Source: Effusibacillus pohliae DSM 22757
Lineage (GTDB): Bacteria; Bacillota; Bacilli; Tumebacillales; Effusibacillaceae
Reading direction: 5' to 3'
NCBI RefSeq assembly: GCF_000376225.1
Contig: NZ_AQXL01000121.1
Coordinates: forward strand, 1 to 64,000
DNA length: 64,000 nt
Shown here piece after piece: positions 10,652 through 37,300 of the stretch; the stretch's first letter is position 1; every line of letters starts with the position of its first letter. Position numbers and translations under genes: made by a program. A model generated the notes under the pieces. It was not told the origin of the DNA and did not search any database. It worked only from the letters and a program-made list of their open reading frames with translations.

Positions 10652-10682
10652 AAAGAGACGTGAGCCGCACGTCTCTTTTTTG
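10652..10682 (+). terminator. ald terminator
   Basis: AAAGAGACGT (10652-10661) pairs with ACGTCTCTTT (10669-10678) across a 7-base loop, with a T tail. Confidence 0.85.
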
Positions 10683-10856
10683 AAGAAGTATGAGGGGCCT
10701 GTTGTGAATCAAGAAGCCTATGTAATAGTTGGCGCAAATCAAGGGAAAGTGGGGCATGTTGCAAGCAAGCGTTTTCATGTATACTAGGAGTTGCGAAAAA
10801 TTCGGATGATCAAACCGGAGAGCTGACCTATTTGTATCCATCGGGAGCGGAGATCG

Positions 10857-18718: not shown

Positions 18719-18826
18719 TGGTGCGCCCGAAAGCGGGCTTTCATGTTGTATCCGTGACAGCCGCCGTGCAGTTTGCCTTTTTACCAACGTATAGTAACAC
18801 CAGCGGAAAGGAGGAAGAGGGCAGCG

Positions 18827-19462
18827 ATGGGCAAACAACACAAAAAATGGAAACACCGGAAGCAGGCAGATACCGGAATCAGTTACAAACGAAAAGATTT
18901 GTATCGGGTGCCGGCCAGGGACAAAACGGGCAAGCCGGTTCGCGCATTCCCGAATCAACCTTTGAACATCAAGCGAATTTTTCACCAGGTCCGGGTGAAG
19001 GGGCGCCGGTTTGATATCCGGCGCCTGGCTGCAAAACGGGATAGCGTTCAAATATTTGGTTTCGACGGAAAAAATGTACAGGCCATTCGTACGGATAAAA
19101 AAGGCAGACTGGAAGTCGTTCCTCGCTTCCCATTCCTGGAACGGGTGTTTCGCGAAGAAAAATTCTTTGGTGTTGAAACCCAGGACGACTGGCTGGTATT
19201 GCCTCCGCAAGACACCTCCACCCAGGTCACCTACTCCTATGCGTTCGTCAATCGGGGAGAGCATCCCGCACTCGCGCGGGTCGAACTGGGTCCGACAGTG
19301 TTTGATTTTGCGATCGATCGGGAAGTGGATGTGAACGCGCGGCAAACGGTGGTGATCGTGCCGACCCGCTTTCTCCGGTTTACACGTGTTTCCGTACGGG
19401 CAAAAGAAGCGGGCAAGCAGACCCGGCTGGATATTTATTTTCAGTCGCAGTCAATCGGCTAG
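18827..19462 (+). CDS. DUF6385-like protein, 211 aa
   Basis: The N-terminal 45 residues are very basic (GKQHKKWKHRKQ) and there is no signal peptide. The C-terminal 100 residues share a pattern with the next gene: a VPTRFLRFTRVSV strand then LDIYFQSQ, matching VPKRFLKYTRLAY and IDVFFNGQ there. This is the DUF6385-type beta domain seen in Bacillota proteins of unknown role. The ATG follows AAAGGAGGAAG. CGTATAGTA at 18788 is one base off a sigma-K -10, without a clear -35. It heads the glycosyltransferase island, so a surface or spore-coat role is inferred. Confidence 0.6.
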   Translation: MGKQHKKWKHRKQADTGISYKRKDLYRVPARDKTGKPVRAFPNQPLNIKRIFHQVRVKGRRFDIRRLAAKRDSVQIFGFDGKNVQAIRTDKKGRLEVVPRFPFLERVFREEKFFGVETQDDWLVLPPQDTSTQVTYSYAFVNRGEHPALARVELGPTVFDFAIDREVDVNARQTVVIVPTRFLRFTRVSVRAKEAGKQTRLDIYFQSQSIG

Positions 19463-19673
19463 TCGAAGCGTGGGGTGGATCCCTTTTGGCTGGACAAGCC
19501 GGTTTGGGTGTACATATATTTTTCGCTTGTCTGGACTGCAGTACAACCGGAAAAATGGCAAGATTCGTACATTGTAAAAGCAGCCAATGTGCTGGCGGTA
19601 TTTTTCCAAAAAACCAGCATCCGCCCACAACATGCTGCCGTTACTAACAATATGCTGGAGAGGGGAGAGACGA

Positions 19674-20333
19674 TTGCCGAATTTTGCTTCGTTCAACACA
19701 AACCCGGACGATCTTCGCACATTGATTTTCGGGAAAGACACGACCGCCACCAGCCGGGCGTTGGTGACAGACGCCAGCGGACGGTTGCTCAACATCCAGA
19801 TGGACGGTACGATCACCAGCGTGCTGGGTGCGACCATTACCGCCGGAACGCTGAACAACCTGCTGAATGGTACGATCACCAGCGTGCTGGGTGCGACCAT
19901 TACCGCCGGTACGCTGAGCAACCTGCTGAATGGTACGATCACCAGCGTGCTGGGTGCGACCATTACCGCCGGTACGCTGAGCAGTGTCACTTCGATTTCA
20001 CAGAAGAGCTTCCAGGAGCAACAAACACTGAACGTCGTGACCGCCGATGCATTCACAGCGCTGCCTGCCGTTACCACAAGCGTGTTCGGTACCTATTCGT
20101 TCTTCATTTATAACAAGGGACCGGGTACCAACAAGGTGGATGCCCGGGTTGAGATCAGTGCCAACGGAACGAACTGGTTTGATGACGTCGACACCGTCAC
20201 CGGCATTGCAGTGGGTTCGGTTGATGTACTCGTTCCCAAGCGGTTCCTCAAATACACCCGGTTGGCGTACCGCTCCTCCACAGCGGGCAGCCCGACCACA
20301 ATCGACGTGTTCTTCAACGGGCAAGGAACCTAG
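19674..20333 (+). CDS. DUF6385 protein with 21-residue repeats
   Basis: The 219-residue product has an N-terminal domain (1-42), nearly three perfect 21-residue repeats starting GTITSVLGATITAG (about 45-104), and a C-terminal beta domain (115-219) shared with the preceding gene. There is no signal peptide. Repeats rich in Thr, Ser, Gly and Val suggest a beta-solenoid or stalk and offer many possible O-glycosylation sites. TTG 19674 follows GGGGAG. CATATATTT (19513-19521), 17 bases after an AC, is one base off a sigma-K promoter. Glycosyltransferase genes follow directly. Confidence 0.7.
   Translation: MPNFASFNTNPDDLRTLIFGKDTTATSRALVTDASGRLLNIQMDGTITSVLGATITAGTLNNLLNGTITSVLGATITAGTLSNLLNGTITSVLGATITAGTLSSVTSISQKSFQEQQTLNVVTADAFTALPAVTTSVFGTYSFFIYNKGPGTNKVDARVEISANGTNWFDDVDTVTGIAVGSVDVLVPKRFLKYTRLAYRSSTAGSPTTIDVFFNGQGT
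19806..19985 (+). repeat. tandem 63-bp repeats inside a gene
   Basis: Units begin with GGTACGATCACCAGCGTGCT at 19806, 19869 and 19932 (period 63, about 2.8 copies). They differ by only a few bases (for example GGAACG versus GGTACG, and AACAAC versus AGCAAC), implying recent expansion or gene conversion. Confidence 0.95.
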
Positions 20334-20351
20334 GTTGATTTGTCACTCATC

Positions 20352-20382
20352 AGTACATGGATTCCATGTACTCTTTTCTTTG
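20352..20382 (+). terminator. terminator between DUF6385 and glycosyltransferase genes
   Basis: AGTACATGG (20352-20360) pairs with CCATGTACT (20364-20372) across a 3-base loop, followed by CTTTTCTTT. It would partly separate the acceptor-like genes from the glycosyltransferase genes. Confidence 0.7.
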
Positions 20383-20395
20383 AGGGAGGAATCGT

Positions 20396-22408
20396 ATGAA
20401 TAGTCCGCTGCTTGGCGTACATGTGATCACGCGCGACGAGGAAGATGTACTGCCTCAATGCCTGGACAGCGTCAAAACGGTTGCGGATGAAATTGTGATT
20501 GTGGATACAGGGTCGGTCGACCGAACCGTAGACATTGCCATCTCCTACGGAGCGAAAATCGTGCACACAAAGTGGGACGATGATTTTTCGAAAGCGAGGA
20601 ATCTGGGACTTTCCCACGCGACAACCGACTGGATTCTGGTGCTTGACGCGGATGAAGCGCTCGCCGCAGGCGCGGAACTGCTTGCCGACCTCTTGCAACG
20701 GACCGATGCAGAAGCTTTTTTGGTGGAGATTGAGAATGTGCTGGGCGATCGCCCGGAGGATCGGCTTCGGCACCAGACGGTCCGCCTGTTCCGGCGAAAT
20801 GCAAGTTACCGGTTCCGGGGCCGGATTCACGAGCAGATCATCCCGGCCATTTTGGAACATCACCCATTGACCAAAATTGAACTGTCTCCTCTGCAAATCG
20901 TTCACTACGGGTACCTGCCACCGCGCATGGAGCGGAAAGATAAAATCCGCCGGAATCTCCGGCTGTTGGAGATGGCGGTCAAGGAAGAGCCTGAAGAACC
21001 GTTCCATATTTATAACCTGGGAGTCACCCATTGCCAAATGGGCAGACTGCGCGAAGCGGCGAGCGAGTTGCAACGGGCTTACGATCTGACGCCGGTTGGA
21101 AGATCGTACCGCCCCACTTTGGTTCGGGATCGGGCGAAAGTCCTGCTAGCATTAAATGAACTGGCAGAAGCGGAACGTTTGCTGCGTGCTGAAATCACCC
21201 ATTATGATGACTACCCCGACCTGTATCATCTGCTGGGGGAAACGTTGGAACGAAAGGGCTTGTTGCGGGAATCGTTTGCGGCCTATGAACAGGCGTCTCG
21301 TTGCGGAGCCGCCCCGTGCAAGTATGTGACGGAAGCGGGGATGGGAACGTTCCGGTCGTTCCAGCGGATGGCGAATCTGGCGAACGAATGGGGGGCGGTG
21401 GAGGAAGCGGTCGCTTTGTACAGGCAGGCGTTGGGTCAGCATCCGGGCTATGTCCCGGCATTGACAGGTCTGGCAGAAAGTTTGCACCGCCTGGGAATGG
21501 CGGACGAGCAAATTCTTGAACATCTGCAAACCGCCACTGCGGACCGGTTGTTGCAGGCTTCGGTGATGGCTGAAATCGGCGCATACCCGGAAGCGCTGGC
21601 GTTGCTCAACCGCATTCACCCGTTGTCGCTTGCAGGGGAAAAACTTCGTTGCGAATGTCTGATGCAGACGGGACAGTTTCCGGAAGCCTATGAAAAATTG
21701 GGGGTGTTGCTGCGGGAAGCGGCAGAACCCGGCCGGCAGTCCTTGCTCCTGGATCGGGCGTTGTGCTGCTGGAGCGAGGAGAGAAGCCTGCCGTTCCGTT
21801 TTTACACGGGATTGTCGCCGGAACAGCAACACATGTTTGCGTGTCTGGATGGTTGGTTGATCGAAAAAAAAGTCCCGGATTCCGTTTCACAACCGTTTGT
21901 GCAAAATCTGCTGGAACGGGCGGTTCAACTCCGGTTGCTGCGGATTGCCGATGCATTGGGCCAGCTTTCGTCCGACTGGTTTCTTGCCTACGCAAAATGT
22001 CTGTACCGGAACGGATTTGTGTTGCTGGCTGCTGATTGTCTCCTGCAAGCCATGAAAACCGGGTCACTGGATGGGGAAGGATTGTTTCTGCTGGCTGAAC
22101 TTCTGTATGACAAAGGGCATTTTCGCCAGGCGTGCGCTCTGTTTGAACAAATCTTAGCGGAAGCTCCAACTGATGAGCGGGCGAGAACAGGCGCGGCCCT
22201 GTGTTATTTGGGGATCGCGGAGGAAGTCGCGGTGGAAGGGATCGGCCGCTTCCCGGATCACCCGGCATTGCAAGCCGATTTGCAGCGGATCAGGGCAAGC
22301 AAAGAAAAGCTCCGGGGGATCCGCTGGCATACGTGCTGGAAGGGGGCACAGAGGAGGAATCTCTATGCATCAGCCAACGATTTCATTGTGTATGATCGTC
22401 AAAAATGA
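20396..22408 (+). CDS. glycosyltransferase family 2 with TPR repeats, 670 aa
   Basis: The N-terminal GT-A domain (about 1-235) shows VITRDEEDVLPQCLDSV, VDEIVIVDTGSVDRT-like strand 2 and the metal motif LDADEA near 85; RIHEQI and VHYGY near 145-180 are shared with the next two genes. Residues 240-640 are TPR-like helical pairs (for example FHIYNLGVTHCQMGRLREAA). No membrane segment is seen, so it acts in the cytoplasm. The family resembles SunS-type protein glycosyltransferases with TPRs; the substrate is unknown. ATG follows GAGGGAGG. The end overlaps the next gene by 44 bases. Confidence 0.8.
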   Translation: MNSPLLGVHVITRDEEDVLPQCLDSVKTVADEIVIVDTGSVDRTVDIAISYGAKIVHTKWDDDFSKARNLGLSHATTDWILVLDADEALAAGAELLADLLQRTDAEAFLVEIENVLGDRPEDRLRHQTVRLFRRNASYRFRGRIHEQIIPAILEHHPLTKIELSPLQIVHYGYLPPRMERKDKIRRNLRLLEMAVKEEPEEPFHIYNLGVTHCQMGRLREAASELQRAYDLTPVGRSYRPTLVRDRAKVLLALNELAEAERLLRAEITHYDDYPDLYHLLGETLERKGLLRESFAAYEQASRCGAAPCKYVTEAGMGTFRSFQRMANLANEWGAVEEAVALYRQALGQHPGYVPALTGLAESLHRLGMADEQILEHLQTATADRLLQASVMAEIGAYPEALALLNRIHPLSLAGEKLRCECLMQTGQFPEAYEKLGVLLREAAEPGRQSLLLDRALCCWSEERSLPFRFYTGLSPEQQHMFACLDGWLIEKKVPDSVSQPFVQNLLERAVQLRLLRIADALGQLSSDWFLAYAKCLYRNGFVLLAADCLLQAMKTGSLDGEGLFLLAELLYDKGHFRQACALFEQILAEAPTDERARTGAALCYLGIAEEVAVEGIGRFPDHPALQADLQRIRASKEKLRGIRWHTCWKGAQRRNLYASANDFIVYDRQK

Positions 22409-24026
22409 AGCCGACCATCTGCCGCGATGTTTGCAGAGTGTCAAAGGAGCCGTGGATGAAATCATTGTAGTCGATACCGGCTCAACAGACGGTACGGCCG
22501 CTGTCGCCCGTCGATTTGGTGCTGATGTGTTCTGTGTCTCCTGGCGGGACGATTTTGCTTACGCCCGTAACCAGGGGGTGGATCGGGCCAGCGGAGACTG
22601 GATTCTGTTTCTGGACGGGGATGAAGAACTGGATCCCGATGACCGCGAGAAACTTCGTCTGTGTGCTCAACATCCGGAGTTTGAAGCGTTCTTCCTGCAG
22701 ATTCACAACTATATCGGCGATGGTTCCCAGGGGGCGACGATCAATCCGGTTCTCAGGCTGTTCAAAAACCGCCCGGAATACCGGTTCGAGGGACGGATTC
22801 ACGAGCAGATCGCCGCCAGCATTTGCCGTCACAAGCCGGAAGCCGCCTTTCACATCACTGACATCAAAATTCACCATTACGGGTATCAACAGGAAACGGT
22901 TCGCAAAAAAGACAAAATTCACCGCAACCTGAAGCTGTTGCAGCAAATGCTCGCGGAAAAACCGGACGATCCGTTCACCCTCTACAACATGGGAGTGGAA
23001 TATCTGCGACTGGCCAGTCTGCAGCAGGCGCTCGACGCGTTTCGAAAAGCGCGTGCGCGGCTGGATCCTGTTGCGAGCAGTTATACGCATTTGCTGTTTA
23101 AATATGAAATCCGCTGCTTGCTGGCGGTTGGCCGCTTGCCGGAAGCGATCCGATTGTGTGAGGAAGGAATCGGTCTCTACCCGGATTATACCGATTTGCA
23201 TCATCTGAAAGGGGTCTGTTTGATCCAAGCGGGACAACTCGCGGCAGCGAAATCCGCTTTCAGTCACGCTTTGACATTGGGACCTGCGGCCAACTGTTAT
23301 CACACGGAAGAAGGGATCGGCACGTACCAGACCTGTTACACATTGGGCCTTTTGTACGAAGCGATGCGCCAATACGACAGGGCTATCGAGTGCCACATGC
23401 AGGCGATTCGTTTCAAATCGAGCGTAAATCCACCGTTGTATCGTATCTTTCGCCTTCTGAAATGTACCAATGCCCAGCCGCAAATCCCCGCTTTTATCGA
23501 GCGACGTTTTCATCTCAAATCGGAAGCGGCCCTGGCCAGGATAATCCAGATTTTGTTTGAGACCGATTGCTTGCAACCGGTTCCTGCGCTTGCAAGGCGA
23601 TTGCGCAATGCAAACCTGCGTCAGTTTAAACGGATGGCGGAACTGAAATGTCTGCTGCTGCAGGGCGACTGGGAAGCCGCACGGAGGATGTTGCGGCAGA
23701 TTCGTTCGAAAGAACGGAACTTCTTCCAAATCGGGCTGGATTGGCTGGAAAAGGGTACCGATGCAGTCCCGAAAGATGTGCTGGCCAGCGGGGAAGAACT
23801 GCCGTTTCTCGCGAAAAGCGCGTTGCAAAACGGGCGGATCGACGCCGGTCTGCAGCTGCTCGACGGCTGGCGGGACCGGCTCCACAGCCCGGATGCGTAC
23901 AAACAATGGATCCGAACGCTGGCCAGCCTGTCCGATTTTCATCTGGAAGTATTGGGAACGTCTGCAGCCTATCACGATGTGGTGCGGGATGCGCGCTTGG
24001 CTTGTCCCCACGCGGACGGTTTTTAG
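22365..24026 (+). CDS. glycosyltransferase family 2 with TPR repeats, 553 aa
   Basis: This is a paralogue of the gene before it: ISLCMIVKNEADHLPRCLQS, EIIVVDTGSTDGT, metal motif LDGDEE near residue 88, then RIHEQI and HHYGY. TPR-like pairs cover about 210-380 (FTLYNMGVEYLRLASLQQAL), and the remainder is helical. ATG 22365 follows GAGGAGG inside the end of the upstream gene, which suggests translational coupling. Substrate and acceptor are not visible. Confidence 0.8.
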   Translation: MHQPTISLCMIVKNEADHLPRCLQSVKGAVDEIIVVDTGSTDGTAAVARRFGADVFCVSWRDDFAYARNQGVDRASGDWILFLDGDEELDPDDREKLRLCAQHPEFEAFFLQIHNYIGDGSQGATINPVLRLFKNRPEYRFEGRIHEQIAASICRHKPEAAFHITDIKIHHYGYQQETVRKKDKIHRNLKLLQQMLAEKPDDPFTLYNMGVEYLRLASLQQALDAFRKARARLDPVASSYTHLLFKYEIRCLLAVGRLPEAIRLCEEGIGLYPDYTDLHHLKGVCLIQAGQLAAAKSAFSHALTLGPAANCYHTEEGIGTYQTCYTLGLLYEAMRQYDRAIECHMQAIRFKSSVNPPLYRIFRLLKCTNAQPQIPAFIERRFHLKSEAALARIIQILFETDCLQPVPALARRLRNANLRQFKRMAELKCLLLQGDWEAARRMLRQIRSKERNFFQIGLDWLEKGTDAVPKDVLASGEELPFLAKSALQNGRIDAGLQLLDGWRDRLHSPDAYKQWIRTLASLSDFHLEVLGTSAAYHDVVRDARLACPHADGF

Positions 24027-24040
24027 TCGGGAGGATTGGC

Positions 24041-25939
24041 ATGAGCTTTGACATCTCATTGTGCATGACCGTGCAAAATGAAGAGGAGTTTCTCGAACGA
24101 TGCCTTGCTTCCGTATCCGGGGTCGTATCGGAAATCATTGTGGTGGACACCGGTTCAACCGACAAAACGGTCGAGATCGCAAAACGGTTCGGAGCATCCG
24201 TCATTCCGGTTCCGTGGGAATACGATTTTGCGAAAGCCCGCAATGCGGGACTCAGCCGGGCAACGAAAAAATGGATTCTGGTGCTGGACGCGGACGAAGA
24301 ACTGGAACCACCGGATGCGGACTATCTGAATGGCCTGCTGCAACAGGAACAGGTGTATGGGTATTTTCTCAAAATCATCAATTATATCGGGGGATCCGAT
24401 GACGGAGAGTATGTGACCGATTCGGTTTGCCGCCTCTTTCGCAACCATCCGGACATTCGCTTTACAAGCAGCATCCATGAAGAGGTGGTTCCCAGCATTC
24501 GGCAAATCGCCGCCGCACAAATCGAATTTTCGGACATCACGGTACGGCATTACGGCTACCTGCAGGAAGTGATCGACCGCAAACGGAAGAACGAACGAAA
24601 CTGGACAATCCTGCAACGGGCGATCGAACGCCAGCCGGATGATCTGCGGCTGCAATATGCGTTGGCAACCGAATATTTTCAGCGTCAAAAATATGCCGAA
24701 GCGCTCGCTCTGTTTGAATCGATCCTGCCCCGTGTGCCGATATTCAGCGGCTATGATTCGGATCTGCTGCTGAAGACGGCGTACGCCTTGCGGGAAACGG
24801 GACGCCAACAGGACGCATGCCGGATCATCGAAGAAGCGCTGGTTTTTTACCCGGATTTTACGGATCTGCTGGACCTGAAAGGGATGCTGTTGCTCGAAAA
24901 TGAACAGTATCAGAACGCCCAATCGACTTTTTTGCAAGCGATCAATATCGGGGACGTGTCCTTCAAGTACACGTCCGCTTCCGGATCGGGGACCTACCGT
25001 TCGCATTTCCTGGCGGGACTGGCGTGTGAGTATCTGTGCGTCTGGCAACAGGCGAAACATCATTATGTCCAGGCAGTGCGCCAGAATCCGGCCTATCTGC
25101 CCGCATGGCGGCGTCTGCTGGCGATCTTGCTGTTGGCGGGCGAGACAGAGGAGGTGTCTGCCCTCCTCACGAAATCTGGAAATCAGGTTCCGGAACGCGC
25201 CCGGCGCCTGCTCATCCAGGTGGCGCTCAATCACCGGGAGCCTGATTTTGCGATGCGGATACTGGCCTGTGGAAACGTTTCGGAAGTATCGGATCCGATA
25301 CTGAAAGGCATCCTGTTGACGCAGACCGATCAGTATGAACAGGCAAAAATCGTCTGGACTCTCGCCCCGAAAGCGGTGCGCCATCTGTACTTATGGGCGC
25401 TTTTGTTACAAGAGAACGATACAAGTGCCGCCATGAAACAGTTGGAGCAATTTGTTATCCTGGATCCGTCCTTTTCCTCCATAGAGGCCATGCTGAAAGG
25501 CGATGAACCAATACACATTTCCGAAACGGCGTACCGTCAGTGCCAGCAGGTGCTCGTTCAGGTCGGGGCGTGGGACGGGTTGATCTGGTTGCAAAGCCAG
25601 GTTCCGCTTGCGGTTGCCTGGCCCTGGCTGCCCGTTCATGTGCTCTGCGGATTGAGAAAAGCGCCTGCAGCGGCCAAACGCCAACTCTTGGCATTGTGTA
25701 ACATGAGGCGGGAGCGATTGACCTACCAGGAACGGTTGGCCGCCGGGTTGTTGGCGTACGATTGCTCCGATTTTGCGGCATCGCATGGCTGGTATTCGGA
25801 AGCACAAAGGGAATTTCCCAATCGGGTGGCCCCCCGCATCGCGCTTTTGCATTTGTACACGTCGGCGGCAAGGTCGGTCAGCGGACAACCGCTTGCCGCT
25901 TTGGACAGCGATCTGCAGTTTCTCACACTTTGCGAATGA
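24041..25939 (+). CDS. glycosyltransferase family 2 with TPR repeats, 632 aa
   Basis: The third tandem paralogue opens FDISLCMTVQNEEEFLERCL, then EIIVVDTGSTDKT, metal motif LDADEE near residue 85, SIHEEV and RHYGY. The TPR-like part starts near 200 (LQYALATEYFQRQKYAEALAL) and extends to the end. ATG 24041 follows GGGAGG, 14 bases after the previous stop. The three copies differ in C-terminal length (553 to 670 residues), so they may recognise different partners. Confidence 0.8.
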   Translation: MSFDISLCMTVQNEEEFLERCLASVSGVVSEIIVVDTGSTDKTVEIAKRFGASVIPVPWEYDFAKARNAGLSRATKKWILVLDADEELEPPDADYLNGLLQQEQVYGYFLKIINYIGGSDDGEYVTDSVCRLFRNHPDIRFTSSIHEEVVPSIRQIAAAQIEFSDITVRHYGYLQEVIDRKRKNERNWTILQRAIERQPDDLRLQYALATEYFQRQKYAEALALFESILPRVPIFSGYDSDLLLKTAYALRETGRQQDACRIIEEALVFYPDFTDLLDLKGMLLLENEQYQNAQSTFLQAINIGDVSFKYTSASGSGTYRSHFLAGLACEYLCVWQQAKHHYVQAVRQNPAYLPAWRRLLAILLLAGETEEVSALLTKSGNQVPERARRLLIQVALNHREPDFAMRILACGNVSEVSDPILKGILLTQTDQYEQAKIVWTLAPKAVRHLYLWALLLQENDTSAAMKQLEQFVILDPSFSSIEAMLKGDEPIHISETAYRQCQQVLVQVGAWDGLIWLQSQVPLAVAWPWLPVHVLCGLRKAPAAAKRQLLALCNMRRERLTYQERLAAGLLAYDCSDFAASHGWYSEAQREFPNRVAPRIALLHLYTSAARSVSGQPLAALDSDLQFLTLCE

Positions 25940-25952
25940 AGGAGACAGACCG

Positions 25953-26999
25953 ATGGGAAATCTGTTACCACCGATTCTTTATCTCCCGTGTTTTGATTTC
26001 CATGTTCACCGCCAACGCCCCCAACATCTGTTGTATCATCTCAGCCTGCTCGGGTTCGATGTCATATACTGCAATGTCACGCAAGACAAAAGCAATCCGT
26101 TTGTTCGTTTGCACGATCATTTTGTGATCTGCCAGGACATCGATGCATTGCCGCTCGACCAGACCTATATCATGTGGCTCACACACGGTCCCTATGTTGA
26201 ATTGTTGCCGAAGTTCAACCTTGCACTGGTGGTCAGCGACATTGCGGACGCTTGTGTGGAAGAATTCGCACCTTATGCCGAGTGGCACGACCGCAAAATT
26301 CAGGCGGCCGATCTGGTGCTTTGCTCTTCCCAGGCGATTTATGAGGAGGCGGCCTGTCAACATGCGAAAGTCAGACTGGTGCGCAACGCTGTCGATTACG
26401 CCCATTTCTCCGCAGCCTTGAAGCCGGAGACCGGTCGCCTGCCGCATGAGGAAACAGCCAGAGCCCTGTGCGGCTCGACCGCTCCTGTGATTGGATTCTG
26501 GGGGGCTGTCGCTACCTGGCTGGATTACGATTTGCTCACCTATCTGGTCCAACAGCGCCCACACTACCTGTTTTGCTTCGTCGGCCAGATCAGTTCGCCC
26601 ATTCCGCAGTCTCTCGCAAAAGCTTCCAATACGCTTTGGCTCGGAAATCGCGATTATGCAGAACTGCCTGCGTTTGCCCGCCAATTCGATGCGGCGATCA
26701 TTCCTTTTCAGGTTCGCGGCGTGACGAAAGCGGCCAATCCTGTCAAACTGTATGAATATCTGGCCGCCGGATTGCCTGTCGTCGCAACCGATCTGCCGGA
26801 AGTGCGGCTCTATTCATGCGTCCGGATCGCCAACTCCCCACAACAGTTTTTACAGCATCTGGATGACGCGTTGATCGAAGACCGCACTCCGGAAAAGATG
26901 GCAAAAAGGCAAACGATCGCTCAACAAGAGAGTTGGCAGGCGCGAGCCGAAGCGATCGCAGAGGACATTTTCGCCCTGTATGGAAATCACACAAAGTAA
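25953..26999 (+). CDS. GT4-type glycosyltransferase, 348 aa
   Basis: The product has a GT-B look: an N-terminal domain beginning ILYLPCFDFHVHRQRPQHLL, a linker helix SSQAIYEEA and RNAVDYAHF near residue 150, and a C-terminal nucleotide-sugar domain ending NPVKLYEYLAAGLPVVATDLPEV near 255-280, with the usual Glu of the EX7E motif. Similar proteins act on cell-surface glycans or proteins. ATG 25953 follows AAGGAGA. It is the last plus-strand gene of the island and ends at a terminator shared with the opposing operon. Confidence 0.8.
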   Translation: MGNLLPPILYLPCFDFHVHRQRPQHLLYHLSLLGFDVIYCNVTQDKSNPFVRLHDHFVICQDIDALPLDQTYIMWLTHGPYVELLPKFNLALVVSDIADACVEEFAPYAEWHDRKIQAADLVLCSSQAIYEEAACQHAKVRLVRNAVDYAHFSAALKPETGRLPHEETARALCGSTAPVIGFWGAVATWLDYDLLTYLVQQRPHYLFCFVGQISSPIPQSLAKASNTLWLGNRDYAELPAFARQFDAAIIPFQVRGVTKAANPVKLYEYLAAGLPVVATDLPEVRLYSCVRIANSPQQFLQHLDDALIEDRTPEKMAKRQTIAQQESWQARAEAIAEDIFALYGNHTK

Positions 27000-27000
27000 A

Positions 27001-27030
27001 ACTGCTGCACGTACATGCAGCAGTCTTTTG
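27001..27030. terminator. bidirectional terminator between convergent operons
   Basis: ACTGCTGC (27001-27008) pairs with GCAGCAGT (27017-27024); CTTTT follows on plus and GTTTTAC on minus. It can end both the glycosyltransferase operon from the left and the wecB operon from the right. Confidence 0.75.
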
Positions 27031-27074
27031 AAGACGGGGGCCAGCCGCCCCCTCCTGCTCGATTGGGTATTCGA

Positions 27075-27806
27075 TCAGTGTCCCACGGTTCCCGCGGTCA
27101 CCAGCAAATACCCTGGAAACAGACTGCGCTCCTCGTCGGTCAGCGTCTGGTACCATTGCCCGATCCATTGTTTTACCGGTTGTGACTGCGGAATGAAATC
27201 GAGAAAATCCAGACTGTTTATGAATCCGATGGGAAACTCCTCAAGCAACCGGATTTCGCTGGTGTGAAATTCGTTTTGCAAGGTATCAACCGGGTCTTCC
27301 CGACCATACATCCAGATTCCGTTCGCTTCTGCAAACGCTTTTCCGACGCGATACGGCAAACATTTAGCATAAGGAACAAATGTGATGACCATTCCGCCAG
27401 GTTTTGTGACACGTGCCATTTCCTGCAGGACAGCCACTTTTCCCGCGAAATCAAAATGTTCGAGAACACCCGCGTTCCAGGTCAAATCGTACGTATCATC
27501 GGGAACGGGGATGTTGCGGATATCGGACAACAGAAATCGCCCGTTCCGGTTTTTGCGCCGGAACGCCAGGTGGCTATTGTCGAGCGCTTTTTTCGAATAA
27601 TCAACCAGTGTCACGTTGGCACCTTCCATCGCCAGGCGCAAGGAGATTTTTCCCGTGCCTGATCCTGCTTCCAGTACCGTCTTTCCTGTTACGTCACCGA
27701 TCAATCTGCCGATCGTCTCATAAATCGTTTGACTCAGCGAATCCCAATGGTAGGACACTTCTTGGGACCACAATCGGTCCCAGACGTATTTTTGCGGGTC
27801 GTTCAT
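27075..27806 (-). CDS. class I SAM-dependent methyltransferase
   Basis: The 243-residue product has motif I VLEAGSGTGKISLRLA near residues 45-60, acidic motif VTLVDYS near 66, and the post-motifs DLTWNAGVLEHF and MARVTKPGGMV, typical of small-molecule or sugar methyltransferases (UbiE/Methyltransf_11-like). The minus-strand ATG at 27806 follows GGAAGGTGGGG and overlaps the upstream stop as ATGA. As the last gene of the wecB operon it may methylate the glycan made there; this is inference. Confidence 0.85.
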   Translation of the reverse strand: MNDPQKYVWDRLWSQEVSYHWDSLSQTIYETIGRLIGDVTGKTVLEAGSGTGKISLRLAMEGANVTLVDYSKKALDNSHLAFRRKNRNGRFLLSDIRNIPVPDDTYDLTWNAGVLEHFDFAGKVAVLQEMARVTKPGGMVITFVPYAKCLPYRVGKAFAEANGIWMYGREDPVDTLQNEFHTSEIRLLEEFPIGFINSLDFLDFIPQSQPVKQWIGQWYQTLTDEERSLFPGYLLVTAGTVGH

Positions 27807-28927
27807 GTTGCCCCACCTTCCAGGTAGTCTGCCAATATGTTTTTCCAACGCTGTTTCCAGATTGATTTGTCAAATGCCAACGCGGTGGCCCGGGCATTCG
27901 CTCCAAGCGTCTTGCGCAGCGCCGGATCTTCGATCAGCCGGATCATCGCTTCGCTCAGCCGTTCCTCCGTCGGAGCTGTCAGGAGCCCGTTAAATCCGTC
28001 GATAATGATGTCATTCAGCCCTCCCACATTGCTGGCCACCACCGGTATCCCGCAACTGATCGCCTCCAGACAAGAGTATGATGTACCTTCCGAAAAAATG
28101 CTGGGAATGACTGCGATATCCGCTTCCTGATAGGCGTCGGCCATCCGGTCGAACGCGTAGGTCCGGTGGATGATCCGGTTTTTGTGCGGATGTTCCCGCA
28201 TCCAGAGCAAAAACGTGTCACCGATCGGGCTGTCTTTGACCAATTCACCGGCGAATTCGACGACCAGGTTAGGATACTGGCGCAATAACCGGTCGGCTGC
28301 CAACATCATCGGAATGATGCCCCGCTCATAACTGATCCGGCGCGGGAACAGGATCCGGATGTCCGACGAGTCAGGTTTTTTTTCCTTCGGCAGGAAGTGA
28401 CGGGTGTCAACCGAGTTGGGCACTAGCACCACCTGCTCGGGATCCTCGTACGTACACACGGAACGGCAGTATGTGAGAAATTGGGAATCGACCGAAACAA
28501 TGCGATGCAACTGGTCGAGCGCCAACTGGATCGATTTCGCCACATGCGTTTTGTCCGACTGGGGCAAATCGGGCCGATCCCAGTTGATGCCGTGGCAGAT
28601 GCCCAGACTGCCTATGCGGTACCGGATGGGATGCCAGATGCAGCTTGCGTAAATCAATGCTCCGCGGGCATGGGATACCATTTTTTCAAACGCTTCCGCA
28701 ATCTGGTCAAAATCGTAGGGGTATCCGAACACCTCGATCTGTTCGAAGCGGGTGGCAAACGGCTGATAGTACGAAAGCTGGTGAACTTCCGGCTTGTATC
28801 CCATTTCCTGGATGACGCCGCAGAGATCGTAGATATAGCGTTCCAGTCCGCCGCCAAAAATACGCGTAAAACGGCAGTTGTATCCGTCGAGAAAACTGTG
28901 TGTGAAGATACTGACCCGTTTCATCAT
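27803..28927 (-). CDS. GT4-type glycosyltransferase, 374 aa
   Basis: A GT-B glycosyltransferase: the start VSIFTHSFLDGYNCRFTRIF leads into a GGGLERYIYDL turn, a linker VVLVPNSVDTRHF near residue 160, RISYERGIIPM, and the C-terminal SIFSEGTSYSCLEAISCGIP with EX7E near 285-305, then NGLLTAPTEERLSEAM. No membrane segment is seen. The start ATG overlaps the upstream stop as ATGA and lies after GAAGAGG; a second ATG one codon later is equally possible. Sugar and acceptor are unknown. Confidence 0.85.
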   Translation of the reverse strand: MMKRVSIFTHSFLDGYNCRFTRIFGGGLERYIYDLCGVIQEMGYKPEVHQLSYYQPFATRFEQIEVFGYPYDFDQIAEAFEKMVSHARGALIYASCIWHPIRYRIGSLGICHGINWDRPDLPQSDKTHVAKSIQLALDQLHRIVSVDSQFLTYCRSVCTYEDPEQVVLVPNSVDTRHFLPKEKKPDSSDIRILFPRRISYERGIIPMMLAADRLLRQYPNLVVEFAGELVKDSPIGDTFLLWMREHPHKNRIIHRTYAFDRMADAYQEADIAVIPSIFSEGTSYSCLEAISCGIPVVASNVGGLNDIIIDGFNGLLTAPTEERLSEAMIRLIEDPALRKTLGANARATALAFDKSIWKQRWKNILADYLEGGAT

Positions 28928-29643
28928 TCCTCTTCTTTCCATTCCACCAGATTGGGATTGGGATCTAGAATCGACTGGTAGTGAGCAAGGCTACCCCAGA
29001 TGCCATCCGGGTCGATCGACAGATAACGGAGGTACTTTTGGTACCGCTCCTCTTCGCTCCCTGCCCAGCCCAGATGTTTCACGCGAAGATCGGAACGATG
29101 TCCCGGCAGAACGCAATAGGACAGGGGAAGCCGCGGGCAATGGTGCATCAGTTTGGGATAGAAATAATGGTATCCCGGCAGATACCGGACCAGGGTCATC
29201 GTGTGCCGGCGGTGGATATTCCACAACGCATCGTCCCGGTAATGGGTCAAACCTCCCCAGAAGTCATAAAAACGGAATCCGACCCAGTCGAATTGATCCT
29301 GATTGATGAGACCAGCAATCTGTTCTTTCACCCTGTCTTCATAGACCTCGTCCGCATCCACCGCCAGCAGCCAATCGGGACTTGTCGATACGGCAACCTG
29401 CCACAGGAGGGACCGCAGCTCCCATTCGCGGTCAAAATGGGACTCTGTCAATTCGATCAGACGGGTGACCTTTTGGTACGATTTGCAGAGACGGACGGTG
29501 CCGTCGGTGCTGGCGTCATCCACAATCACGATGTCATCGACAAATTGTGAAAGCTGATCGAGCACCATCGGCAAGTAGCGATCCGCTTCATTCCGAACCT
29601 GCAGCATCGCCGTCAACCGGTTGTCTTGCGATTTCCGGATCAT
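28924..29643 (-). CDS. glycosyltransferase family 2, 239 aa
   Basis: A short GT-A protein: LTAMLQVRNEADRYLPMVLD, IVIVDDASTDGTVRLC, and the metal motif AVDADEVYED near residue 100, followed by FRFYDFWGG. It has no TPR tail, unlike the three plus-strand relatives. It overlaps the 410-residue gene upstream by 56 bases and the GT4 gene downstream by 4, so the operon is tightly packed. Function is assigned by fold only. Confidence 0.8.
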   Translation of the reverse strand: MIRKSQDNRLTAMLQVRNEADRYLPMVLDQLSQFVDDIVIVDDASTDGTVRLCKSYQKVTRLIELTESHFDREWELRSLLWQVAVSTSPDWLLAVDADEVYEDRVKEQIAGLINQDQFDWVGFRFYDFWGGLTHYRDDALWNIHRRHTMTLVRYLPGYHYFYPKLMHHCPRLPLSYCVLPGHRSDLRVKHLGWAGSEEERYQKYLRYLSIDPDGIWGSLAHYQSILDPNPNLVEWKEEE

Positions 29644-30820
29644 CCGGCCTCACCTCCTTTGCGCAGGCGGCCAAACCGTCATCCAGCGCTTTGCATTCCA
29701 AAATATGCGCGATCGCCTGATAATCATAGGTTGCAGCTTGCAAAAACCAGTGGATGGCCGCATGTCGATTGCCGTATATCATGGATCGCACCGTGCCGTT
29801 GAGAATGCAATAATCCCGCCGGTCCTGTAGGGAAACAAGATCGGCCGGCTCAATCAAGCGGAGCGCCTCTTCCAGTTGTCCCAGATGAAGATACACCTGG
29901 CATAATATGCGTCGTGCATCATCGGAAGCAAGCGTTCTGAGAATCGCTGCCGCCGATTTGTAATCCTCATTGAGCCGGAAGATTTCCGCCTGCACCAGTC
30001 CGTATTTTCCTTGTTCCAGCAAGGATAGCAGGAAGCAGTACGCTTGTTTTTCATGCGGCAGAAGGGCGGTGATGCCGTAGACATGGACCGCCTTCTCCAG
30101 CTCGCCCGCCTGCGCTTCGATCGCCGATAAAAAACGGTAATGTGTCGTCAAACAGTCTTTGTCGCCCGCCAGCAGGGCGGATTCAAACGACTGCAGCAGA
30201 TGCTCGCGAGCTTCCGGCTGTTTTAACAAATACAGGTACACCGAAAGCAGAAAACAGACCGTAGCCCGCATGTCGGCCCGCTCCAAAAGACTCCTGTAGT
30301 ACGCGGTACGCCAGCGCCACTGTCTTTGCACCACATCCGTCATCGGGAGGTTGTGGATCATCCGGTTCATGGCATCCCGGAAAGCCACTTCATAATCGCG
30401 GAGAAACAAGGTACTGTCTTTGGTCTGATGCACATCGAACGGTTTTCGTTCTTCACCCGACAGCAAGATCAGGGAATCGCGGCGAAAACATTGTTCCAGA
30501 TAGATCCGTTCTGATTGCGTGCAAACAACCGTCGATCTTGCGGCCAGATGGGTCGAGCATTTTTCCCATAAGCTCCTGTCGCACCCTTCCGGGCACGGTT
30601 CGAGATAGGAAACGAGATAGCGGGGCGCAAACCGGTTCACCACTTGTATCCAATAGGGGTGAAACACGAATGCCACCGTTTCATTCGGATCAAGCGATTC
30701 CAGGCGTGAGAGCGGAACATCCGGAATCAGCAGCGGATCGTCACACTCTGGCAGCAATTGCAGGAGTCGGTGGCAGGGGGAGTCCTGTTGCCAGGCGGTG
30801 CCGAAACAGACGATTTTCAT
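29588..30820 (-). CDS. unknown protein with TPR-like C-terminus, 410 aa
   Basis: Not firmly recognised. The N-terminal 150 residues start MKIVCFGTAWQQDSPCHRLL and look like half of a GT-B fold (FHPYWIQVVNRFAPRYLVSYLEPCPE; STVVCTQSERIYLEQ). Residues 180-400 are TPR-like helical pairs (LVQAEIFRLNEDYKSAAAIL; VYLHLGQLEEALRLI). The start at 30820 overlaps the upstream gene stop by 4 bases (30817-30820). It could be a degenerate glycosyltransferase acting as a scaffold for its neighbours. Confidence 0.65.
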   Translation of the reverse strand: MKIVCFGTAWQQDSPCHRLLQLLPECDDPLLIPDVPLSRLESLDPNETVAFVFHPYWIQVVNRFAPRYLVSYLEPCPEGCDRSLWEKCSTHLAARSTVVCTQSERIYLEQCFRRDSLILLSGEERKPFDVHQTKDSTLFLRDYEVAFRDAMNRMIHNLPMTDVVQRQWRWRTAYYRSLLERADMRATVCFLLSVYLYLLKQPEAREHLLQSFESALLAGDKDCLTTHYRFLSAIEAQAGELEKAVHVYGITALLPHEKQAYCFLLSLLEQGKYGLVQAEIFRLNEDYKSAAAILRTLASDDARRILCQVYLHLGQLEEALRLIEPADLVSLQDRRDYCILNGTVRSMIYGNRHAAIHWFLQAATYDYQAIAHILECKALDDGLAACAKEVRPDDPEIARQPVDGDAAGSE

Positions 30821-32130
30821 GACTTCACCTTCCGTACTGTGAGTTCCGGAATTTTTGCCATGTCGGAGAGCGGCATTGCGTTGGGAAGCAGTTTGCATGT
30901 TCCCTGTTCGGAGAATCGAATTGGCAAATTGGCTGGATCGGGGCCGGGATGCACGTGCATGACGCAGGAAAGAGGAATTTCCTCCCATGCGTCCGATTGG
31001 GCCAGCGCCAGGGCTGCCCGCTTTCGGTGGATCGCGTCGACCAACCGGCTGATATGATCCCGCCGGTACAGATAACCTGCCTCAAGGTATGCAATGTATC
31101 GTCCCCGCGCCAGCCGCTGCACTGCTTCAAACGCCGCTTGAGCCTGGGTTGCTTGTTCGATCCAGAGGCCAGCGACGGGTCGGCGGGTGAGTTTCGGCAG
31201 GCGAGGAGGAGACCCCAGGCGGATCAGCAGGATTTCGATGTTGGAGTAGGTCTGTTGCTCAATACTGGCGAGCGATTCATGCAAAGCATGCAAGGAAGCG
31301 GCAAAACACGTGACAACGACGGACACAAGGGGAGGAGCAAGCGCTTCCGAAGTCAGGGGAATCTGGCCCGGATCCTCTGTTTGGACGAGGGTCGAATACG
31401 GATCGACCGTTGCCGCCAGATTCCATTTTTGGCGGAAGCGGATCCAGCTGTTCGCCTCTTCTGCCGTCTTTTCATCAGACTCTTCAGAGATCGGCTGCAT
31501 GACATACACAAACGCGTCTTTGCAAAGGGCGAGTCGGTATCCGTTTGCTTTCGCCCGGAGGCACCAATCGAGCAGACGGGCTGTGTGGCATTGGAGAGAA
31601 GGATCGAGTCCGCCAATCCTGTCCAGTACCGATTTGCGGCAAACGAAACAGGTTCCGCGCAGGCTGTGCACAGGTTCCCACATTCCGCTGTTTTGCATGG
31701 CGATTTTCTGTGAGAAGGCGAACAGTTCGTCGAGATCGGAACAAAAAGCCGAATCCGTTTCAAGGTTGGAAGAGGGGGCTGCCATCCCGACTGCCGAATC
31801 ATCAAAAAAAGTCCAGAGTATGCGTGTCAACCAGTGCGGGGTGACCATCACGCGGTCATCCAGCAAAACGAAAAAATCGGTTTTAACTTGCGACAACGCC
31901 AGATTCAACCGGTCTTTGCCCGCCAGCTCCGGATCGTAGGAATGGTCATCCACAACAATCAGTTTGGCGGGTTCCGACGTGCATCGGCGGATCGTTTCCA
32001 GACAGGCGGACGTCCAGGCCGGGCGGGTACTGCGTAGAATGATCGTTACCGCTGTCTCGTCCGGTAGGGGGAACACGCCTTTTGCAAGCAGTTTCATTGC
32101 ACGGGAAGCCAACCGTTCGGAGTGAGTCAC
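30817..32130 (-). CDS. two-domain family 2 glycosyltransferase-like protein, 437 aa
   Basis: Two GT2-like halves are visible. The first (20-260) has VTIILRSTRPAWTSACLET, IVVDDHSYDPEL, a modified metal site VLLDDRVMV and the GT2 motif LRGTCFVCRKSVLDRIGGLD. The second (275-437) begins PPLVSVVVTCFAASLHALHE and runs through IEILLIRLGSPP, but has AYLEAGYLYRRDH in place of a clean DXD, so it may be inactive. GTG 32130 follows GGGAGGG, 13 bases after wecB. Similar double proteins build surface polysaccharide; the product here is unknown. Confidence 0.75.
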   Translation of the reverse strand: MTHSERLASRAMKLLAKGVFPLPDETAVTIILRSTRPAWTSACLETIRRCTSEPAKLIVVDDHSYDPELAGKDRLNLALSQVKTDFFVLLDDRVMVTPHWLTRILWTFFDDSAVGMAAPSSNLETDSAFCSDLDELFAFSQKIAMQNSGMWEPVHSLRGTCFVCRKSVLDRIGGLDPSLQCHTARLLDWCLRAKANGYRLALCKDAFVYVMQPISEESDEKTAEEANSWIRFRQKWNLAATVDPYSTLVQTEDPGQIPLTSEALAPPLVSVVVTCFAASLHALHESLASIEQQTYSNIEILLIRLGSPPRLPKLTRRPVAGLWIEQATQAQAAFEAVQRLARGRYIAYLEAGYLYRRDHISRLVDAIHRKRAALALAQSDAWEEIPLSCVMHVHPGPDPANLPIRFSEQGTCKLLPNAMPLSDMAKIPELTVRKVKS

Positions 32131-32143
32131 GACAAGCCCTCCC

Positions 32144-33226
32144 TTATCCCTGCAGCAGGATCCGGACGATTTTTTCGCTTGCGCCGGGCGGGCCGTAGGG
32201 ATGGATCCAAGTTTGAGCGGACTGTAACACAGCTGACATCGACTGCAGGATCTCGCGGGTGTCGGTTCCGGCCAGCCGGTTGGCCCCGCAGGCAACCGTT
32301 TCCGGGCGTTCTGTGTTCAGCCGTAAGGTGATGCAAGGGGTGCCCAGGATACAGGCTTCTTCCTGCAAACCTCCACTGTCCGTCAAAACGATTCGGGCTT
32401 CCCGCTGCAACAGAACCGAGTCGGCAAACGGGGCGGGCGGGTCCAGAACGATCAGGTTTTTGGATGGCAGCGCCCGCAATAAATCCGATTCGGCCAGTTT
32501 CCGTTTGGTTCTCGGATGCAGGGACAGCACCACTTTGTACGGTGTATCCCCGGAGATCTGCCGCAACGCCTGCACAATCGATCGCAACCGGGCGGGATCG
32601 TCCGTATTTTCCTGACGGTGGATCGTGACAAACAGATACTGTTTCGGGGCAAGTCCCAGTTGGCCGAGAATCGGCCTGTCGCCAGACCGGGCATTGATAT
32701 AGGCCAGCGCATCCACAATCGTTTGCCCCACCAGATAAATCCCGTTCCGGATTCCTTCCCGCTGCAGGTTGCGGGCGGCGGTCCGGGTTGGAGCAAACAG
32801 GTGGGTGGCCATGTGATCGACCAGTTTCCGGTTGATCTCTTCCGGCATCTGTCGGTCAAAACTGCGAAGACCGGCCTCCACATGGGCGATGCGGCAGTTT
32901 CGCTTGGCGGCCGCCAGCGCGGCGCCCAGTGTGGTGTTGGTATCTCCGTGCACGATCACCGTTTCGATTTTTTCCCGGTCGATGAGTTGCTCGACACCGA
33001 CCATGATGTTGGCCGTTGTCGTGGCGTGGGAACCTGAACCGACGTGCAGGCGGCAGTCCGGCTCCGGCAGCCCGAACGTTTCGGCGATCCTTTTGTCGAG
33101 TGCGTCATCATAATGTTGGCCCGAATGGATAAAGAGGGAACGCGGGTGCCGCTGTTTGATGTTTTGAATGACCAACGCCATTTTGATCAGTTCCGGGCGA
33201 GTTCCGACAATCACAGCGAGTTTCAT
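32144..33226 (-). CDS. wecB: UDP-N-acetylglucosamine 2-epimerase (non-hydrolysing)
   Basis: The 360-residue enzyme converts UDP-GlcNAc to UDP-ManNAc, a precursor of surface glycans. The start VIVGTRPELIKMALVIQNI, HGDTNTTLGAALAA near 95, HVEAGLRSFDRQMPEEINR near 115, and LTDSGGLQEEACILGTP near 285 are all family-typical. It is the first gene of the minus-strand operon and suggests that the island makes a ManNAc-type sugar. The ATG follows GAAGGGTGAAGG. Confidence 0.92.
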   Translation of the reverse strand: MKLAVIVGTRPELIKMALVIQNIKQRHPRSLFIHSGQHYDDALDKRIAETFGLPEPDCRLHVGSGSHATTTANIMVGVEQLIDREKIETVIVHGDTNTTLGAALAAAKRNCRIAHVEAGLRSFDRQMPEEINRKLVDHMATHLFAPTRTAARNLQREGIRNGIYLVGQTIVDALAYINARSGDRPILGQLGLAPKQYLFVTIHRQENTDDPARLRSIVQALRQISGDTPYKVVLSLHPRTKRKLAESDLLRALPSKNLIVLDPPAPFADSVLLQREARIVLTDSGGLQEEACILGTPCITLRLNTERPETVACGANRLAGTDTREILQSMSAVLQSAQTWIHPYGPPGASEKIVRILLQG

Positions 33227-33647
33227 CCTTCACCCTTCTTCACGCTCTCCGTTTGCGCACATTCTGAACCAGCATATGCAAAAAGCGGCGTGTTCGGCAC
33301 TAGCGCATCCCTATCGCCCAGCGAAGTGATGCTATGCTTCGAAGCCTTTTCCGGGTACTTCGCCCGGGGCTCCAAACGTACGCCGCTACGCCAATACGTC
33401 GCGGCGGCGCGCGAATGGCAAACGAGATCTGGTCAACCGGGATGCGGGATCCGATCCGTTTGCTCAGCGTATCGACCTGCAGGACAACAGACATACTGCT
33501 CCCTCCCATTTTTCACAGCCTACAATCATATAGACGTCACAACCGGCAAAAAGTCACACATCCGGTTGCAAGATCGGCTTATTTGCGGAATAGTAGAAGC
33601 AGGGAACAATCCGTGAACGCAAAACGGGAGGAACGTGGAGGGGCAAT
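33227..33647. other. intergenic region with gene remnant and hairpins
   Basis: Besides the ABC ATPase remnant, this 421-base gap holds GTACGCCGCTACG-type dyads near 33380, CCGGG/CCCGG (33346-33362), and CAACCGG/CCGGTTG (33540-33568). It may contain the scar of a lost mobile element or deletion. No intact transposase is seen on either strand. Confidence 0.4.
33300..33494 (-). pseudogene. truncated ABC transporter ATPase N-terminus
   Basis: From ATG 33494 (after GGGAGGGAGCAGT) the frame reads SVVLQVDTLSKRIGSRIP and VDQISFAIRA, a typical beginning of an ABC ATPase just before the Walker A loop. Then it breaks into unrelated Arg/Pro-rich sequence without GxxGxGKT. The rest of the gene is gone. 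The break is followed by about 130 bases rich in short hairpins. Confidence 0.6.
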
Positions 33648-35685: not shown

Positions 35686-36657
35686 ATGGCGGTCGGCAAA
35701 AGCGTGCCAAGAAAAGAAGCTTTGGACAAGGTGACGGGAGTCGCCAAATATACAAGTGATTGGATGGCTCCCGGGATATTGCATGCGAAGATGGTGATCA
35801 GTCCCTATGCCCACGCGAAAATCAAATCGATTGACACGGCCGCCGCCCGATCCGTTTCCGGGGTGCGGGCAGTGGTGACGGGACGGGATCAGGTTGTGCT
35901 GACGGGAGAGGAAATTCGCGACCGGCCGATTCTGGCGGCGGACCGGGTCCGCTATCACGGCGAGCCGGTGGCAGTCGTCGTGGCGGAGAGTGAAGCGGCG
36001 GCGAAGCGGGCCGCCGGGTTGGTCAAAGTGGAATACCAGCCGCTGCCGGTTGTCAACTCTCCCACGCAAGCCCTGCAACCTGATGCGCCGCTGATTCACG
36101 AACGCCTGGGCGAATATGAGCGCATACCGGGAGTGTACCCGGAGCCTGGCACCAATATCGCGAACCGTACAAAAATACGAAAGGGAAACCTCGATAAGGG
36201 ATGGATGGAAAGCGAAGTGATCGCGAAAGCAAGCTTTTCATTCCCGCAATCGGACCATGCCGCGATGGAAACGCGAGCGGTCACGGCTGAAATTTTGCCG
36301 GACGGACAGATCATCATTCACTCTTCCACGCAGTCCCCGTTTATGGTGGAAAGGTTGATGAGCCGGTATTTGAATCTTGCGCAAGGTCAAATCATCGTCC
36401 GCACTCCATTGGTGGGCGGAGCTTACGGTGGAAAAGTGCCGGTCCAGCTCGAACTGATCGCCTATCTGGCGGCACGAGCGGTCGGCGGCCGCAAGGTGAA
36501 ACTGGTCAACTCACGCAAGGAGGATTTCATCACGTCTCCCGTTCACATCGGGCTCGATGCAAAAATCAAACTGGGCTGCACAAGAGAAGGGAAGCTGAAA
36601 GCGGCTGAAATTATCTTTTTGTTTGATGGCGGGGCCTATTCAGACAAGGCGGTGCAT
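35686..36657 (+). pseudogene. truncated molybdenum hydroxylase large subunit (xanthine dehydrogenase family)
   Basis: Residues 1-324 match the start of xanthine/aldehyde dehydrogenase large subunits: VPRKEALDKVTGVAKYTSDW, ILAADRVRYHGEPVAVVVAE, TPLVGGAYGGKVPVQLE near 255 and FLFDGGAYSDKAVH near 312-324. Then homology stops at about 36657, where a MobA-like sequence begins in another frame. About 430 C-terminal residues with the molybdopterin site are missing. ATG follows GGGGGAGGGG. The protein cannot be functional; the operon was probably cut by one deletion. Confidence 0.85.
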
Positions 36658-37300
36658 TGTAGGGATCTATCTGGCGGCCGGGAAAAGCGGTCGTATGGGA
36701 ACCAACAAACTGGCGCTGCCGCTCGGGGGAGTGCCGCTTGGCAGTTTGGCGTTGCGGTCGGCGCTTGCGTCGGAGTTGGACCACATCCTCGTGGTCACCC
36801 GAGCGGACGATTCGCTCGCCTGGGTCGACCGCTCCCTTTTTGCCACCCCGGTTCGGGAAAAATGGAGCCGTGTTGCCTGTGCCGAATCAGGCTTGGGGCA
36901 GGCACACTCTTTGCGATGCGGGTTGCGGGCCGCGGCTTGGCAGGCAGCGGCAATCGTGGTGCTGCTTGCCGACCAGCCGTTTGTCACCCGGTCGGTGATC
37001 GATGAGCTGATTTTTCACTACCAAAAAAGCGCCCATGAAAACAGGCGGCTTTCTTATGTGGCGGCCAGTCACCGGGGGATCGCGCGGCCGCCCGTTTTGT
37101 TATCCGACCGGCTGTTTTCCACTCTTGCACGGTTGCGGGGAGACGAAGGGGCCCGTCACCTGTTGCGAAACGGGATGCCTGGCCAGGGAATGTGTGTCGA
37201 ATATGACGATCCATACCTGTTCCAGGATATCGATACGCGGGAGGACTACGAGAGGCTGAAGGTCCTATGGGTCGCTTTTCAGGGAAGGGATTTGCTATAA
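36626..37300 (+). pseudogene. MobA-like molybdenum cofactor nucleotidyltransferase, 5-prime end replaced
   Basis: From 36656 the frame reads IVGIYLAAGKSGRMGTNKLA, the nucleotide-binding loop of MocA/PucB transferases, which attach CMP or GMP to molybdopterin for xanthine dehydrogenase. VVLLADQPFVTRSVIDEL near residue 125 and FQDIDTREDYERL at the end complete the domain. The original start is lost at the deletion junction; only ATG 36626 (or TTG 36623) inside the broken upstream gene is left, without a ribosome binding site. The catalytic domain looks intact, so it may be expressed poorly rather than dead. Confidence 0.7.

Follow-up and report, generated by a model that had tools for sequence, protein, structure and literature searches.

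A predicted late-sporulation glycoprotein island in Effusibacillus pohliae that combines DUF6385 repeat proteins with three tandem GT2-TPR glycosyltransferases

In the genome of Effusibacillus pohliae DSM 22757, two genes for DUF6385 proteins are followed by a series of glycosyltransferase genes, which raises the question of whether these enzymes glycosylate the DUF6385 proteins, and in what setting they would do so. The stretch of DNA analyzed here (the window) comprises 64,000 nucleotides of contig 121 of the 3.36-Mb genome, and the island spans positions 18827-33226, between pdp and the flavin reductase and dacF genes. The forward operon runs in the order DUF_A, DUF_B, GTT1, GTT2, GTT3, and GT4a, and converges with a reverse operon in the order wecB, GT2dbl, TPRx, GT2s, GT4b, and a methyltransferase gene. 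A bidirectional terminator at 26998-27027, formed by a palindrome of 13 pairs that is flanked on each side by T-runs, is common to the two operons. Both the shared terminator and the gene content (two DUF6385 genes, three tandem GT2-TPR genes, a GT4 gene, and a convergent operon), as described in an earlier note on this DNA, proved to be real. A pattern scan also located a stem-loop with a T-run between DUF_B and GTT1 (20352..20372, forward strand), possibly a partial terminator that would give more DUF_B than enzyme.

The island is neighbored in the window by deoB, nucleoside phosphorylase genes, pdp, the flavin reductase gene, and dacF. One genome of the same genus (G001) carries deoB, a phosphorylase gene, pdp, the flavin reductase gene, and dacF with no genes inserted, and in another (G002) pdp adjoins dacF and the island is found among other neighbors on a separate contig. 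The island was also absent from this site in three further relatives of the same order, and a contig fragment of a third same-genus genome (G003) carries GTT2, GTT3, and GT4a. Its absence from the site in relatives, together with its presence elsewhere in G002, indicates that the island is a moved or inserted unit, in agreement with the earlier claim of an insertion between pdp and dacF. A phage origin was rejected, as relatives of DUF_B numbered 0 in 50,697 phage records. Among plasmid records, one matched DUF_B (in 5 places), namely a 2.7-Mb replicon of Paenibacillus cellulosilyticus. Beyond the island, the window contains an ORF at 35686-37005 that begins like the large subunit of a molybdopterin-type dehydrogenase and changes character near 36650, where a MocA-like gene overlaps it, possibly owing to a frameshift or truncation.

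DUF_A (18827..19462, forward strand) has a basic N-terminus, an IFG..TDxxGRL motif, and a C-terminal DUF6385 domain at 19211-19453 (PF19912, E=7.7e-25; whole-genome match), and DUF_B (19674..20333, forward strand, with a TTG start at 19674) carries its DUF6385 domain at 20076-20324 (PF19912, E=2.2e-29). The corresponding scores were 87 and 102 bits, as compared with a Pfam gathering threshold of 26.8, and PF19912 was the only Pfam domain in the two proteins, neither of which contains collagen repeats or a BclA_C domain. The proteins are paralogues with 33% identity across the C-terminal region, and by eye the IFG...TDxxGRL motif is common to both. The N-terminus of DUF_B has the conserved form MPNFxxFNxNPDxLRxLIFG and is followed by T/S-rich repeats and then by a jelly-roll domain; in the window, the repeats comprise three near-identical 21-residue units, GTITSVLGATITAGTLxNLLN (19806..19994, forward strand), with a Ser+Thr content of about 33%. 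Inspection confirmed the lack of a signal peptide on either protein, as previously claimed, with DUF_A starting with MGKQHKKWKHRKQ and DUF_B with MPNFASFNTN.

The C-terminal domain of DUF_B was modeled by AF2 as a jelly roll, mostly with pLDDT >90, and the repeat stalk was predicted with low confidence and was rich in beta-strands in a longer orthologue, for which Foldseek gave no usable matches. At the sequence level, no solved structure matched DUF_B significantly. In a Foldseek search with the DUF6385 jelly roll, the best PDB matches included PirA, Ena3A, and Ena1B, both Ena proteins being within the top ten, with E values of 2.8e-4 for 8pdz and 1.7e-3 for 7a02 and TM scores to the target of about 0.56-0.58, which are marginal and similar to those of other jelly rolls. 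Apart from this marginal resemblance in the jelly-roll fold, DUF_B differs from the Ena appendage subunits (Ena1B, Ena3A) in its long repeat region and in its sequence, which contains no cysteine and hence none for an Ena-type disulfide linkage or an N-terminal cysteine connector. The earlier description of the DUF6385 protein as self-assembling found no direct support, the resemblance of the jelly roll to Ena subunits being weak. A body of 5.39 million open-licence papers yielded no mention of DUF6385 and no description of the gene set, and on neighboring topics it offered background on SgtA, F-ENA, and sigma-K only.

The three genes that follow DUF_B, all on the forward strand, are GTT1 (20396..22408, 670 aa), GTT2 (22365..24026, 553 aa), and GTT3 (24041..25939, 632 aa), and in each product Pfam matches placed TPRs after a GT2 domain. 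The closest solved structures to these GT2 domains were those of the protein glycosyltransferases GmaR (2.6e-34 for GTT1, 2.1e-41 for GTT2, and 2.5e-33 for GTT3) and SunS (6e-24 for GTT1 and 3e-30 for GTT2), and we regard GTT1-3 as putative cytoplasmic GT2-TPR protein glycosyltransferases. Although their GT2 domains are homologous to that of GmaR, the Listeria flagellin glycosyltransferase, the GTT genes lie away from flagellar gene clusters, and their products exceed the solved GmaR fragment two- to threefold in length. With SunS/ThuS, the glycocin S-glycosyltransferases that modify a peptide in the cytoplasm, they share a GT2 fold combined with helical repeats; however, membership of the SunS family (TIGR04195) was rejected, with scores of 76-112 bits under a curated cut-off of 350, and no glycocin gene was recognized among the island genes. 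The last gene of the operon, GT4a (25953..26999, forward strand), encodes a TuaH-like GT4-type glycosyltransferase that is retained within the genus and in a few Paenibacillus.

The convergent operon, entirely on the reverse strand, consists of wecB (32144..33226), encoding a UDP-GlcNAc 2-epimerase (TIGR00236, 2e-103); GT2dbl (30817..32130), with two GT2 domains (PF00535, PF13641); TPRx (29588..30820), a gene left unnamed in the earlier note, whose TPR protein gave weak TPR matches; GT2s (28924..29643), a short GT2 (PF00535); GT4b (27803..28924), a GT4 (PF00534); and the gene for a SAM-dependent methyltransferase (27075..27806; PF13649, PF08241). Synteny showed TPRx to be conserved in this partner operon and GT2s and GT4b to be widely conserved members of it. 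The genome has a further wecB elsewhere, 38% identical to that of the island, and the gene is missing from the G002 island and from almost every other cluster, which marks it as an addition made locally and not as a member of the conserved set. The ManNAc-type sugar donor that had been suggested on the basis of WecB is therefore left without conserved support. Upstream of wecB, the minus strand of the window at 33300-33500 contains a short open stretch, MSVVLQVDTLSKRIGSRIPVDQISFAIR, which resembles the start of an ABC-transporter ATPase and is broken off, and which is possibly a gene remnant.

Co-occurrence of DUF6385 with GT2-TPR genes in other genomes, the absence of which had been named in advance as a refutation of the proposal, was confirmed. 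In 80 named loci picked by DUF_B alone, GTT1 came after DUF_B in the same orientation in 80/80, and GTT2 and GTT3 then followed in order in all except L119, whose locus ends within GTT1. These loci belong to Paenibacillus, Cohnella, Kyrpidia, Alicyclobacillus, Hydrogenibacillus, and Bacillus methanolicus, and the cluster was also present in Paenibacillus amylolyticus. DUF6385 occurred in 44 genomes of a class sample of 300 Bacilli genomes, usually as a gene pair, and all 24 of the full-length GTT1 matches in this sample fell in DUF6385 genomes (chance about 1e-23, kinship ignored); this score group comprised 23 matches of at least 784 bits and G083 at 530, all other matches scoring 390 or less. 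A phylum sample of 398 genomes contained 56 with DUF6385. When loci were sampled through PF19912, at least one GT2-TPR gene lay within about 10 kb in 26/34 class loci and in 23/32 phylum-sample loci. Of the DUF6385 loci sampled, roughly one in four (17/66) had no GT2-TPR gene within about 10 kb, and the DUF6385 domain is therefore also used without such enzymes.

The repeat regions of DUF_B-type proteins range from about 31 to 1019 residues. Their mean Ser+Thr fraction was 0.305 at the 48 loci with a GT2-TPR gene nearby, as against 0.192 at the 10 loci without one (Mann-Whitney P=1.7e-5, kinship ignored). L039 is a counter-example, being GT-positive with repeats as poor in Ser/Thr as those of its GT-negative relatives. 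This locus belongs, with L076, L077, L078, and L029, to a DUF6385 subgroup with Thr-low, QVFQSAQSNLQAR-type 11-residue repeats, and three of these five have no GT2-TPR gene in the vicinity. Among phylum-sample loci, a CBM96/disaggregatase-like module frequently replaces the DUF_A-type basic N-terminus in the second DUF6385 protein (tested for L193:8266-9093, and judged by eye for L196, L203, L205, L206, and others).

The genomes that encode DUF6385 are essentially all those of sporulators. SpoIVA was present in 44/44 DUF6385 genomes of the class sample, as against 209/300 overall (hypergeometric 2.6e-8, kinship ignored), and in 54/56 of the phylum sample, as against 334/398 (P=0.002, kinship ignored), and the two exceptions are incomplete assemblies, 75-80% complete. 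Upstream of DUF_A, a sigma-K-like -10 element, CGTATAGTA (18788..18796, forward strand), lies at a conserved position 39 nt before the start. The exact CATANNNTA occurred in 22 of 77 non-redundant regions upstream of DUF_A-type genes, compared with an expectation of 0.97, and most of these copies lay 37-41 nt ahead of the start; it was much less enriched upstream of internal GTT genes (10/278, compared with 2.2 expected). Furthermore, there was a single offset at which AC was enriched (AC at -19), and it lies 17 bp upstream of the CATANNNTA element (17/68, P about 9e-11). This family-wide spacing of AC and CATANNNTA matches the sigma-K pattern of AC at -35 and CATA at -10 (PMC3789822). DUF_A is predicted in silico to carry a conserved sigma-K-like promoter, the window copy of which has 5/6 bases of CATANNNTA. 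A sigma-70 promoter was rejected, as the region showed no excess over shuffles.

We also inspected 18 loci with GT2-TPR genes but no strong DUF6385 neighbor. At L085, L086, L087, and L097, the GT2-TPR genes belong to clusters of flagellar genes, where flagellin glycosyltransferases of the GmaR type would be expected. At L092-L096 and L098, they adjoin genes with an FPNIPNITP-like N-terminus, some of them with collagen repeats, and the gene beside GT2-TPR at L095 (8992-10860) has a BclA_C domain, suggesting that SgtA-BclA pairs are common outside C. difficile. Such placement beside flagellar or BclA-like genes fits a general habit in which the enzyme is encoded next to its acceptor. One phylum-sample DUF6385 locus (L214:3249-7140 and 9715-10980) is bordered by a GT2-TPR gene and by genes for two proteins with collagen (GPTG) repeats, so that both acceptor types are mixed. 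BclA_C and DUF6385 are both present in Paenibacillus genomes and are thus not mutually exclusive; the genome that contains the window yielded no BclA_C domain.

The closest described counterpart of the island is a system of C. difficile, in which SgtA, an enzyme with a GT2 domain and four TPRs encoded beside bclA3, modifies threonines in peptides from the collagen region of BclA3 with beta-O-GlcNAc in vitro, and in which a spore antigen is lost in the sgtA mutant (PMC7157674). The three bclA genes of this organism are sigma-K dependent (PMC3789822). As in that system, a GT2 domain with C-terminal TPRs is encoded beside a repeat-rich surface gene with Thr-rich repeats (PMC7157674), and membership of the acceptor genes there in the sigma-K regulon (PMC3789822) is paralleled here by the sigma-K-like motif. 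The acceptor, however, would here have DUF6385 in place of the BclA head and repeats other than collagen, and three tandem long GT2-TPRs with an accessory GT/TPR operon take the place of one 358-aa enzyme. DUF_B likewise resembles the BclA of the exosporium nap in its short N-terminus, its Thr-rich repeat stalk of variable length, and its jelly-roll head, although neither DUF_A nor DUF_B has collagen repeats or a BclA_C domain. We consider that the island is probably a dedicated late-sporulation system for a spore-surface glycoprotein that follows the SgtA-BclA3 type and has a new family of acceptors and a larger set of enzymes. Of what the earlier note had proposed, glycosylation of DUF6385 repeat proteins by GT2-TPR enzymes in a sporulation setting was strongly supported by the comparative tests (synteny, GTT1 exclusivity, sporulators, the sigma-K-like promoter, and Ser/Thr content), and self-assembly and the ManNAc donor were not.

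The same genes might instead form an island for a surface or spore polysaccharide, of a teichuronic-acid or EPS-like type, in which the DUF6385 proteins would be structural neighbors or polysaccharide binders and not acceptors. The resemblance of wecB, the GT4 genes (with the TuaH-like GT4a), and the methyltransferase gene to polysaccharide loci speaks for this explanation, as does the fusion of DUF6385 to a CBM96/disaggregatase-like module in some genomes. We nevertheless regard it as unlikely, because no family match to a lipid-carrier (undecaprenyl-phosphate) transferase, flippase, ABC exporter, polymerase, or Wzz was found among the twelve island genes, because the three core enzymes are GmaR/SunS-type protein glycosyltransferases with TPRs, and because the GTT genes stand directly after DUF_B in 80/80 named loci.

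Slightly less probable again is that the GT2-TPR enzymes modify another acceptor encoded elsewhere, such as flagellin or a BclA-like protein, with DUF6385 as a bystander. The confinement of GTT1 orthologues to DUF6385 genomes, the recurrence of the DUF6385/GT2-TPR adjacency in many families and outside Bacilli as well, the lack of a BclA_C domain in the window's genome, and the way in which repeat Ser/Thr content tracks GT presence all argue against such an arrangement, although related GT2-TPR genes do stand beside flagellar or BclA-like genes in other genomes. An ordinary spore coat operon, in which the DUF6385 proteins would be structural coat or appendage proteins on which the glycosyltransferases act weakly or not at all, appears very improbable: the jelly-roll fold with its weak similarity to Ena appendage subunits and the occurrence of DUF6385 loci without GT2-TPR would agree with it, but dedicated, full-length GTT1-3 are kept together across large evolutionary distances.

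On the preferred reading, that of a spore-surface glycoprotein system, the island would act in the mother cell during late sporulation and build a glycosylated spore-surface protein. DUF_B would be the counterpart of BclA, with its conserved N-terminus, a Thr/Ser-rich stalk of variable length in which other repeats replace collagen, and the DUF6385 jelly roll as its head, and DUF_A, which is smaller and basic and has the same type of head, would be its partner and perhaps serve as the anchor. In the cytoplasm, the TPR part of GTT1-3 may hold the repeat protein while the GT2 part moves sugar to Thr/Ser hydroxyls, and the glycosyltransferases and methyltransferase of the convergent operon may extend or cap the glycan. 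The product would then be laid onto the forespore from outside, and this proposed placement would account for the lack of a signal peptide. The activity of the enzymes, the acceptor sites, the identity of the sugar, the spore location, and the role of DUF_A are points that we infer.

More tentatively, and with somewhat less confidence than an even chance would warrant, DUF6385 repeat proteins may, throughout the phylum, make up a second type of glycosylated nap or filament on the spore surface beside the BclA-type collagen proteins, with three dedicated GT2-TPRs glycosylating folded or unfolded repeats directly in the mother cell, each at its own site or step. If the preferred reading is right, a domain so far without an assigned function would, in many spore-formers, gain a role as an acceptor of cytoplasmic O-glycosylation for the spore surface. 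SgtA-BclA3 would then exemplify a more general arrangement, with the gene for a GT2-TPR enzyme next to that for its repeat-protein acceptor, be it flagellin, collagen-like, or DUF6385, and the spore glycans of Paenibacillus, Kyrpidia, and many other Bacillota would become predictable from sequence.
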